A DNA stretch of 64,000 bases, from the NCBI RefSeq assembly GCF_008122265.1, contig NZ_CP043042.1:1426001-1490000 (forward strand). Reading direction: 5' to 3'. The notes under the pieces were generated by a model. It was not told the DNA's origin. It made no database searches and saw only the letters and a list, made by a program, of their open reading frames with translations. Shown one piece after another: positions 31,737 to 46,245 of this stretch (within the stretch, counting starts at the first letter, position 1; each line of letters begins with the position of its first letter). The translations under genes were made by a program, and so were the position numbers. The DNA is from Marinobacter fonticola (lineage in GTDB: Bacteria; Pseudomonadota; Gammaproteobacteria; Pseudomonadales; Oleiphilaceae).

Positions 31737-33809
31737 ATGAACGCGATCGAAAAGACCCCAGGTCATCGGCGTTACCCCAAATTGCTTGAGCCGTTAGACC
31801 TTGGCTTCACTACCTTGCGCAACCGGACGCTGATGGGGTCGATGCACACGGGCCTTGAGGAAATGCCCAATGGCTTCGAACGCATGGCGGCCTTCTTCGC
31901 TGAACGTGCGCGGGGTGGTGCCGGGTTGATCGTGACCGGCGGTATTGCGCCCAACCCTGAAGGCGGCGTACGCCAGCATGCGGCCAAGATGGATACCCAG
32001 GAAGAGGCGGATCAACACAAGGTCGTCACCCGGGCGGTTCATGAGGCGGGCGGTAAGATCTGCATGCAGATCCTCCATGCTGGCCGTTACGCTTACCATC
32101 CCGAGCTGGTTGCACCGTCTGCGATCCAGGCGCCGATCAACCCGTTCACGCCGAAGGCGCTCGATGAGGCCGGCATCGAGAAGCAGATCGAAGCCTATGC
32201 CCATTGCGCTTCCTTGGCGCAGGGGGCGGGGTACGACGGCGTGGAGATCATGGGTTCGGAAGGCTACTTCATCAATCAGTTTATCGTGGCCCATACCAAC
32301 CATCGTACCGATCAGTGGGGTGGCAGCTACGAGAACCGGATCCGTCTGCCCATTGAGGTTGTGCGCCGGGTTCGCGAGCGGGTTGGTGCGAACTGCATTA
32401 TTATCTACCGGTTATCCATGCTGGACCTGATCGAGGACGGCAGCACCTGGGACGAAGTGGTTCATCTCGCCAAGGAGATCGAGAAGGCCGGCGCTACCAT
32501 CATCAACACCGGTATCGGCTGGCACGAAGCCAGAGTGCCTACCATTGCCACCTCCGTGCCACGCGGCGCCTTTACCAAGGTCACCGCGCGGCTGAAGGGC
32601 GAAGTGAGTATCCCTCTGGTCACCACCAACCGCATCAATATGCCGGATGTCGCGGAAAAGATTCTGGCCGAAGGTGATGCCGATATGGTGTCCATGGCCC
32701 GTCCATTCCTGGCCGACGCGGACCTCGTGCGTAAAGCGGAGGAGGATCGGGCCGAGGAGATCAATACGTGCATCGGCTGCAACCAAGCCTGTCTGGACCA
32801 TACCTTCGGCGGCAAACTCACCACATGCCTGGTGAATCCTCGTGCGTGCTACGAGACCGAACTGACCTACGTCAAAACCGTGGCGCCTAAGCGGATTGCG
32901 GTTGTTGGCGCTGGCCCCGCGGGGCTGGCCTTCGCGACGGTGGCCGCGGAGCGAGGTCACAAGGTCACGCTGTTCGATGCGGGCAATGAGGTGGGCGGCC
33001 AGTTTAATGTCGCCAAACGGATTCCGGGTAAGGAAGAGTTTTACGAAACCCTGCGCTATTACCGCGTCATGCTTGAGAAACACGGTGTCGAAGTGAAGCT
33101 CAATACCCGCGTGAGCGCCGACGATCTCACCAAGGACGGTTTCGACGACATCGTTCTGGCCACCGGTATCGCTCCGCGTACGCCCGAAATCGAAGGTGTC
33201 GACCACCCGATGGTGATGGGCTATCTCGATGCGTTGCTGCAGCGTCGTGAAGTGGGTCGTCGCGTCGCTGTCATTGGCGCTGGAGGCATCGGCTTCGACG
33301 TCTCCGAATTCCTGGTCCATGAAGGCGACTCGCCATCACTGCATACCGATCACTTTATGAAGGAATGGGGTGTGGACCTGACGGTGGAACACCGCGGCGG
33401 CATCCAGGGTGTTGCTCCCCAGGTACCGGCGCCGGCCCGGCAAGTGTTTCTGCTTCAGCGCAAGGCGACCAAGGTGGGTAAGAACCTGGGCAAGACCACC
33501 GGTTGGATTCATCGCAGTGCTTTGAAGATGCGTGAGGTGCAAATGATCCCGGGCGTCACCTACCGCAAGGTCGACGATCAGGGGCTGCATATCACCGTGA
33601 CACCGAAAGGCGCGGAGCAGGGAGAGGACCATATTCTCCAGGTGGATAACGTGATTATCTGCGCCGGCCAGGACCCCTTGCGGGAACTCCAGCAGGGCCT
33701 GTTGGATGCCGGTCAACGTGTCCATCTGATCGGTGGCTCGGACGTCGCCGCTGAACTGGATGCCAAGCGGGCAATCAATCAGGGGAGCCGGTTGGCGGCT
33801 GAGCTCTGA
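31737..33809 (+). CDS. fadH: NADPH-dependent 2,4-dienoyl-CoA reductase
   Basis: A 690-residue three-part flavoprotein that reduces 2,4-dienoyl-CoA during beta-oxidation of unsaturated fatty acids. Residues 1-340 are an old-yellow-enzyme barrel ([18 protein letters not shown] at the start, then [14 protein letters not shown] and [11 protein letters not shown]). The 4Fe-4S cysteines follow near 345-363 in [20 protein letters not shown]. Then come FAD ([19 protein letters not shown]) and NADPH ([14 protein letters not shown]) folds. ATG 31737 has GGAG at 7 nt; the frame opens 15 bp earlier without a site. Its last 492 bp recur at 45754-46245 beyond the CRISPR locus. No terminator follows this copy. 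Confidence 0.93.
33318..33809 (+). repeat. 492-bp direct repeat, copy 1 (3' end of fadH)
   Basis: This segment equals 45754-46245 base for base, except T33800 against G46236, a silent Ala codon change. The match ends at the fadH stop codon; after it the two flanks have nothing in common. The offset between copies is 12,436 bp, with the whole CRISPR-Cas locus in between. Confidence 0.97.
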
Positions 33810-33945
33810 GTACTGAGATGCCGACACAGTGGTCACAAACCGTTCTTGCTGAAGTGACGGTGTAAAATGATGTCAACTCGATAGCGAACCGAAGGTCGTT
33901 TGTCTAGGCTCAGTCAGATCTAATTGTTCAGCAAAGGGATTTGAC

Positions 33946-34908
33946 TTGAGCCGTTTCGACCGTATCTACCGTATCCACGATATCCTCCGCACTGCCCGCC
34001 ACCCGGTCCCCAAACGCCGTTTTATGACCGAGCTGGAGACTTCCAGCAATACGCTTACACGCGATTTCGAATACCTGCGTGACACGCTTGGTGCGCCCCT
34101 GGTCTATAACCGGGAGCGCAATGGACATGAATACGATCCAGAGGCACCGGTATTCGAACTGCCCGGCTTTTGGATGAATCCCAGTGAACTCTATGCGCTG
34201 TTGGCCTGTGAACAGCTACTCGAGGCCGTACAACCCGGTTTGATGGCGCACCGGTTGGCACCGCTGAGAGAGCGCATTCGCAGCTTGCTGGGTGAGACCG
34301 GTCACGATGCCGAGCGGATCAGCGAGCGGGTCCAGGTTCAGCCCATTCAGGTCAGGCACACACTTCATCAGATTTTCGAGCCCGTGGCCGAAGCGACCCT
34401 GGCTGCTCACAAGCTCCGCTTTGCCTATCGGGGGCGATCCGGTAAGGGCGGCAGCCTGAGAACCGTCCATCCACAACGTTTACTGCATTACCGATCTAAC
34501 TGGTATCTGCTAGCTCATTGCCAAAAAGCCCTGGCCTTACGATTGTTCTCGCTGGATCGAATCGCAGATCCGAAATGTCTGAAAGATCCTGCCAACACCA
34601 TCGAGCCGACTGTCCTTAACGAATACGCCACCTCTAGCTTCGGTATTTTTGGTGGCCAGCCGCTAGGTATCGCTCACCTCAAATTCAACGAACACGCTGC
34701 GCAGTGGGTAGCCGACGAACAGTGGCATCCGGACCAAACCGGCGAATGGCGAGGCGACAGTTTTCATCTGAAGGTGCCCTATGCCGACATGCGCGAGCTG
34801 GTTATGGATATTTTGCGCTATGGAGCGGACGTGGAGGTGATTGGGCCGGTGGAATTGAGGCGTGAGGTGGCCGACCGGGTAAGGAATATGGCTGCACGGT
34901 ACTGTTGA
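33946..34908 (+). CDS. WYL-domain transcriptional regulator of the CRISPR locus
   Basis: A 320-residue YafY-like regulator. The N-terminal winged helix reads RFDRIYRIHDILRTARHPVPKRRFMTELE. The central WYL domain (about 145-210) contains LLHYRSNWYLLAHC and ALRLFSLDRI, and a C-terminal WCX-like extension follows. WYL proteins bind nucleic-acid ligands and often accompany CRISPR-Cas loci, where they usually act as repressors. The start is TTG at 33946. It ends only 74 bp before the cas3 start used here and is the first gene after the inserted segment's left end, so it is likely to control cas expression. Confidence 0.88.
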   Translation: MSRFDRIYRIHDILRTARHPVPKRRFMTELETSSNTLTRDFEYLRDTLGAPLVYNRERNGHEYDPEAPVFELPGFWMNPSELYALLACEQLLEAVQPGLMAHRLAPLRERIRSLLGETGHDAERISERVQVQPIQVRHTLHQIFEPVAEATLAAHKLRFAYRGRSGKGGSLRTVHPQRLLHYRSNWYLLAHCQKALALRLFSLDRIADPKCLKDPANTIEPTVLNEYATSSFGIFGGQPLGIAHLKFNEHAAQWVADEQWHPDQTGEWRGDSFHLKVPYADMRELVMDILRYGADVEVIGPVELRREVADRVRNMAARYC

Positions 34909-45730: not shown

Positions 45731-45753
45731 GGTGTCTAGATACTCGCGTTGTT

Positions 45754-46245
45754 CATGAAGGCGACTCGCCATCACTGCATACCGATCACTTTATGAAGGA
45801 ATGGGGTGTGGACCTGACGGTGGAACACCGCGGCGGCATCCAGGGTGTTGCTCCCCAGGTACCGGCGCCGGCCCGGCAAGTGTTTCTGCTTCAGCGCAAG
45901 GCGACCAAGGTGGGTAAGAACCTGGGCAAGACCACCGGTTGGATTCATCGCAGTGCTTTGAAGATGCGTGAGGTGCAAATGATCCCGGGCGTCACCTACC
46001 GCAAGGTCGACGATCAGGGGCTGCATATCACCGTGACACCGAAAGGCGCGGAGCAGGGAGAGGACCATATTCTCCAGGTGGATAACGTGATTATCTGCGC
46101 CGGCCAGGACCCCTTGCGGGAACTCCAGCAGGGCCTGTTGGATGCCGGTCAACGTGTCCATCTGATCGGTGGCTCGGACGTCGCCGCTGAACTGGATGCC
46201 AAGCGGGCAATCAATCAGGGGAGCCGGTTGGCGGCGGAGCTCTGA
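45754..46245 (+). pseudogene. fadH 3' fragment (direct repeat copy 2)
   Basis: This holds the last 492 bp of fadH without its 5' part. It reads in frame from a point 13 codons before an internal ATG at 45793 to the stop at 46245. It has no ribosome site and is unlikely to make an active protein, since it covers only part of the NADPH/FAD region. It is identical to copy 1 except for the silent change at 46236. Upstream it joins CRISPR spacer sequence; downstream it keeps what looks like the original fadH terminator. Confidence 0.95.

Follow-up and report, generated by a model that had tools for sequence, protein, structure and literature searches.

We analysed a 64,000-nucleotide stretch of the Marinobacter fonticola chromosome (contig NZ_CP043042.1, positions 1,426,001 to 1,490,000; hereafter the window), in which a full type I-E locus of clustered regularly interspaced short palindromic repeats and associated genes (CRISPR-Cas) lies between two direct copies of the 3′ end of fadH. 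This arrangement is, in our view, the probable scar of an acquisition by homologous recombination. The features of the locus are listed below by position in the window, with the evidence for each in brackets; some open reading frames (ORFs) are given as listed by program.

31722..33809, plus strand: intact fadH, 2,4-dienoyl-CoA reductase family, 695 amino acids, with the left repeat copy as its 3′ end (orthologue identity)
33318..33809, plus strand: left repeat copy, ending at the fadH stop codon (sequence comparison)
33810..33945, no strand: left junction, foreign sequence from the fadH stop to the WYL gene (unmatched in the fetched relatives; no forward terminator-like site)
33946..34908, plus strand: WYL-domain regulator (Pfam WYL and WCX; PADLOC WYL)
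34920..37730, plus strand: cas3, ORF as listed, the true start may be further in (Pfam, PADLOC)
37812..39605, plus strand: cas8e/cse1, ORF as listed, homology starts near residue 52-60 (Pfam, PADLOC, comparison)
39509..40228, plus strand: cas11/cse2, ORF as listed (Pfam, PADLOC)
40265..41302, plus strand: cas7e (Pfam, PADLOC)
41311..42030, plus strand: cas5e (Pfam, PADLOC)
42033..42725, plus strand: cas6e (Pfam, PADLOC)
42728..43648, plus strand: cas1e (Pfam, PADLOC)
43650..43943, plus strand: cas2e (PADLOC only)
43944..44053, plus strand: presumed leader (20 nt across its end match three other I-E loci, L043, L061 and L063)
44054..45753, plus strand: CRISPR array of 28 repeats, cut at the 28th spacer (repeat analysis)
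45754..46245, plus strand: right repeat copy, the duplicated fadH 3′ end, with native flank to its right (sequence comparison)
46275..46311, plus strand: native fadH terminator (terminator search; homologous sequence past fadH in the closest relative, G004)
46466..47716, plus strand: native downstream gene, here called 46466, 416 amino acids, no Pfam family over the cut-off (orthologues in relatives)

The two repeat copies are in direct orientation and equal at 491 of 492 positions, and in both the block of identity terminates at the fadH TGA; blastn stretches the left copy to 33315 (495 bp, 99.6%). The lone mismatch, T at 33800 and G at 46236, is silent, falling on the third base of an alanine codon (33798-33800, GCT/GCG). 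It lies 9 bases from the stop-side end and could mark a donor-derived tail; this is a hint only, and relatives carry A, C or T at that position. Besides the CRISPR array, the pair is the sole direct-repeat family of at least 40 bp in the window (exact seed of 16). Across the single-contig genome of 4,543,926 bp, the 492-bp sequence matches only the two copies and one paralogue at 67%, which excludes a chance origin of the pair. The product of fadH is 87-92% identical to its orthologues in 5 genus mates, and among named proteins it is closest to NADPH-dependent 2,4-dienoyl-CoA reductases. The identity of fadH to that of G004 is 79.7% inside the repeat and 81.8% upstream of it, and across six relatives the divergence of the repeat minus that of the upstream part ranges from -0.1 to 3.6 points. 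Given this similar divergence, both copies look host-type. A mosaic fadH was also considered, and none was seen in the same comparison.

The foreign bases, 33810-45753, amount to 11,944 and comprise the WYL gene, the full type I-E cas set, the presumed leader and the array. Eight cas genes, from cas3 to cas2e, stand in one operon with the array beside cas2, as expected for type I-E. The array has 27 exact repeats and one with a single change, with 27 spacers of 32-33 nt, and the CRISPR system itself is ordinary. Pfam and PADLOC reveal no integrase or transposase gene in the island, where the genes and the array leave no room for one, and no inverted repeat of at least 20 bp with a 14-base exact seed was found in 30000-50000. 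No transfer RNA (tRNA) gene is found at the island edges, the only one in the window (Asp, 30123-30199) lying approximately 3.1 kb to the left of the left copy; this result is compatible with an attachment site in a protein gene. The guanine plus cytosine content is 58.6% in the island and 58.1% in the window, so composition does not mark the island as foreign. None of the spacer matches to phages listed (15 of 19 records, E up to 1) is convincing: the best three are short, unannotated, array-like records and the others are weak or about 39 bp at 85%. As for self-targets, the best match of a spacer outside the array is 28 bp at 86% (E 0.55). Finally, a genome-wide search revealed neither a second array nor a lost distal part of this one: there is no second long place matching the array, and the exact 26-nt core of the repeat is counted 27 times, the 28th repeat being the one with the changed base.

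The two edges of the island differ in kind. On the left, foreign sequence starts directly past the fadH stop codon, 136 bp ahead of the WYL gene. On the right, the array stops after a perfect repeat and 23 of the 32 bases of spacer 28, and fadH codons follow. Old arrays usually end in a degenerate repeat, as does that of Tamilnaduibacter salinus (G006). With its truncated spacer behind a perfect repeat, the right edge of the island resembles a chance break within an array that was once longer, not the terminus of an element.

The ancestral state of the site can be read in G004, where fadH leads into a homologous terminator and then the 46466 orthologue. This order indicates that the sequence past the right copy is native and that past the left copy is new. 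Among the 56 other loci returned with flanks, a fadH end lies upstream of the 46466 orthologue in the same orientation in 46, at a distance of 93-947 bp (median 209.5); two of the 46 rest on matches of only 29 and 61 residues, and two partly overlapping searches gave a 46466 match in 46 and 117 other genomes. The initial annotation had described the repeat pair with its coordinates, length and single silent change, the ends at the stop codons, the full I-E locus, and the lack of an integrase, a transposase or a tRNA attachment site, all of which is confirmed. Its reading of an old fadH locus split by an insertion agrees with the 46 loci, and the uninterrupted site that it expected, with fadH directly before the terminator and the 46466 gene and no cas genes, is that of G004; the terminator is present, at 46275-46311 rather than 46276-46314.

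The fadH-46466 interval appears to be an insertion hotspot, since it holds other DNA in four relatives. Three of the 10 loci without an upstream fadH end are occupied by insertions: an operon resembling a branched-chain amino-acid ATP-binding cassette (ABC) transporter, named by eye, in G005 (L035) and G002 (L036), and another type I-E locus in T. salinus (G006; L043/L047). In G001 (L038) the insert is about 0.95 kb and resembles, again by eye, a toxin-antitoxin pair. No second fadH end was found near any of these four inserts. The T. salinus locus (L043, L047, L116) shares subtype, gene order, orientation, repeat and flanking genes with that of the window; it differs in lying approximately 7.7 kb from fadH with genes between, in lacking a fadH duplication and in a Cse1 only 56% identical. 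Cse1 of the window is 60-64% identical to those of G156, G016, G104 and G025, so the two I-E loci of this interval are not each other's closest, and Tamilnaduibacter was rejected as the closest donor type. Counting this one, 13 of the 163 family genomes have Cse1; Cse1 and the CRISPR repeat are missing from all 5 genus mates searched. As side observations, Cas1 of the window (42728-43943 region) and of G006 agree at about 90%, against 56 and 43% for Cse1 and Cse2 (37812-40228 region), the adaptation and effector genes having diverged to very different degrees, and L043 holds a 229-bp, 81% direct repeat (13640-13867 and 14952-15178) around small ORFs just past the Tamilnaduibacter array.

We surveyed 120 type I-E loci including the window. 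Eleven were removed because they duplicated another locus or lacked a cas7 match, which leaves 109 distinct loci; in 91 of these, window included, the sequence reaches beyond 1 kb to either side of the cas block. The named loci number 80, chosen as the best of 548, and the survey as a whole covers approximately 10 kb on each side of cas7, a span that misses larger islands. A loose filter (80 bp, 75%, flanking) is passed by 15 loci, window included. Near-identical two-copy duplications of a gene end of at least 150 bp occur in the window and in L172, that is, in 1 of the 90 other loci with room to show one. In L140 a stretch of about 130 bp is present four times. L158 (Vibrio ruber) has a 934-bp, 86% direct repeat (2380-3294 and 16323-17241) that brackets two CRISPR arrays from outside; additional partial copies lie to its right, and no gene end was recognised. 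The remaining 11 have, among the matches listed, at most 158 bp at 75-87%. Separately, L133 (Marinomonas ostreistagni) carries a fadH homologue (58%; 2263-4275) about 0.8 kb before a I-E cas3 with one small gene between; it is the sole fadH among the 80 named loci and possibly there by chance.

L172, from Halomonas sp. A11-A (NZ_QGTM01000010.1; repeat at 3959-4235 and 15756-16227), has the topology of the window: an intact gene, CRISPR-Cas, a duplicated 3′ end and then the genes that adjoin the intact gene in relatives. A minus-strand gene ends approximately 70 bp from the array end, and 30 bp ahead of cas3 its 3′ end recurs as a fragment of 277 bp that is about 98% identical and contains a premature stop; here too identity falls off at the stop codon. 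ABC-transporter genes resembling znuC and znuB (named by eye) come after this copy. The gene is present in 3 of 4 other genomes searched; both transporter genes follow it in L226 and L227, and in L225 znuB was found after it and znuC was not. This gene order extends the logic of the empty site to the Halomonas locus. The two cases differ in the gene, in orientation, in the length and identity of the repeat and in the stop within the fragment, and the Halomonas intact copy contains a run of N with the same stretch on both sides (a scaffold gap). Duplication of a gene end around type I-E loci is rare but recurrent. Among the records listed from searches of open-licence papers, no title or abstract opening announces a CRISPR-locus acquisition scar of this kind, which is not a claim of absence from print at large.

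We consider it probable (approximately 60%) that homologous recombination, and no mobile-element enzyme, brought the CRISPR-Cas DNA of the island into the fadH locus from outside. A piece of DNA with a fadH 3′ end and a CRISPR-Cas locus just downstream would have entered an island-free cell and been trimmed at random positions, one within spacer 28 and the other 492 bp short of the fadH stop. The trimmed ends would have been joined into a circle, which Ku and LigD could ligate, and one RecA crossover in fadH would have inserted this circle, leaving intact fadH, the island, the duplicated 3′ end and the native terminator. Circularisation, crossover, entry route and donor are elements that we infer. 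The initial annotation had likewise proposed a circle and a single crossover, still the best model; the mid-spacer edge favours a trimmed, ligated linear fragment over an element as the source of the circle. The locus has lost no recipient DNA, matching the additive outcome predicted for a single crossover, and the insertion lies between direct repeats of a single recipient segment, as in Campbell-type integration. Two Ku genes and LigD lie side by side in this genome; Ku was found in 1 of 14 control genomes.

A precedent exists in E. coli, where 56 of 60 Lac- clones obtained with a cut plasmid bearing one homologous gene end are reported to have a partial duplication of the target gene, the 14 sequenced duplications (109-950 bp) being explained by trimming followed by recircularisation and a single crossover (PMC3240628). 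Additive insertion, direct partial-gene copies of comparable length and the lack of an element recombinase are common to both cases; that study used a plasmid in a conjugation assay, whereas here the locus is a natural CRISPR-Cas system and the mechanism is deduced. Related ideas are the displacement of gene ends at type VI secretion loci (PMC5361080) and duplications made by transformation in pneumococcus (PMC3784515).

Several observations weigh against recombination with a trimmed circle. The repeat halts exactly at the stop codon, here and in Halomonas, whereas identity to a conspecific donor ought to extend some way into the 3′ untranslated region. This requires either a donor in which the island directly adjoined the stop or a subsequent gene conversion that homogenised the coding part. 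The four other inserts of the interval came without a duplication. No close donor was found, the best Cse1 outside this genome being 70% identical among 8000 candidates scored, and megablast gave no plasmid match to the cas block. The repeat is slightly more diverged than the upstream part in comparison with 5 of the 6 relatives (0.2-3.6 points), a difference that we are inclined to read as noise. ComEC and DprA genes are present and say little, because they are common in the control genomes (10 and 11 of 14, respectively).

The stop-codon boundary would also suit a relic of an integrase-driven island whose attachment site was the fadH 3′ end and whose integrase has since been lost: the gene end of the element would have rebuilt fadH, and the displaced native end would have become the right copy. 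Elements supplying a gene end are expected to give identity up to the stop codon, as in both loci, and the occupation of the interval by other DNA in four relatives fits as well. On the other hand, the island is without a recombinase or excision gene, its right edge falls mid-spacer and not at an element end, and the other inserts show no duplicated fadH end. Moreover, attachment repeats are usually neither as long nor as uniform as 492 bp at 99.8%. Altogether we regard this explanation as unlikely. That both edges are unmatched in relatives and no donor fadH is known would also suit a non-homologous insertion at a break with wide-spaced nicks, or homology-facilitated illegitimate recombination with the sister chromosome, the 492 bp being a filled-in or re-copied target segment; the Ku and LigD genes would serve such an event too. 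This we hold to be quite unlikely, since the stop-codon boundary would have to be a coincidence in two independent loci, and homology-facilitated illegitimate recombination predicts deletions, which in the E. coli assay account for 4 of 60 clones and are about 10 times rarer than trimmed-circle crossover (PMC3240628). Finally, a 492-bp repeat can mislead short-read assembly, and a CRISPR-Cas molecule or region could have been misjoined at it; with a single-contig genome, copies differing by one base and outer flanks in ancestral order, such an artefact is very improbable.

The repeats may offer the island a way out. Removal in silico of one repeat length (12,436 bp) leaves a fadH of 695 codons with one stop at its end, ahead of the terminator, so that the deletion and restoration put forward in the initial annotation are plausible. 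In Deinococcus radiodurans, an insert between 438-bp direct repeats is reported to be lost at 6.5e-4, spacing up to 10.5 kb having no effect and one mismatch making deletions 4.8-fold fewer (PMC4627823). Measurable loss is a reasonable expectation here, bearing in mind that D. radiodurans is polyploid and unrelated. Such loss is not a switch, the deletion being one-way unless the circle re-enters, and the suggestion of a "switchable" immunity is not supported. Nor is that of a "recent" event: gene conversion could keep the copies alike and may hide the age of the insertion. As for expression, no forward terminator-like site was found in 33600-34100, and transcription of fadH is predicted to be able to run into the WYL-cas genes. 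Transcription of the array may run on to 46311; a weak terminator-like site (45729-45746) spans the last repeat and the cut spacer. The right copy keeps an open frame of 150 codons from an ATG at 45793, within potential reach of array transcription.

The CRISPR system of Staphylococcus epidermidis is reportedly of type III, and staphylococcal cassette chromosome mec (SCCmec) elements are excised by cassette recombinases. Loss of a CRISPR-Cas region between flanking homologous genes is described for S. epidermidis in 2 of 16 deletion types; those deletions span 65-306 kb and arose under selection, and the repeats there are not an entry scar (PMC3784566). The type III-A locus of S. aureus also leaves the chromosome, excised within the SCCmec element (PMC10434264), whereas the island of M. 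fonticola has no cassette recombinase gene.

Our case is of wider interest for the way immune loci move. In it, the scar of what is probably a recombinase-free acquisition is well enough preserved for ancestral site, inserted DNA and break points to be recognised; another bacterial family has a second locus of this topology. CRISPR-Cas loci are patchy among relatives and the act of chromosomal acquisition is rarely visible. The scar makes it testable whether immune loci enter and leave chromosomes without mobile-element enzymes. It is a doubtful, speculative extension that CRISPR-Cas loci travel among related bacteria as recombinase-free passengers, in circles that Ku and LigD make from fragments tied to the end of an adjacent gene, entering by a single crossover and leaving via the same repeats. 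If this were true, an immune locus that can be lost would sit at a constant gene end within populations, and the cycle would be captured at different moments in the fadH interval, where two genera hold two different I-E loci, and in the Halomonas case.

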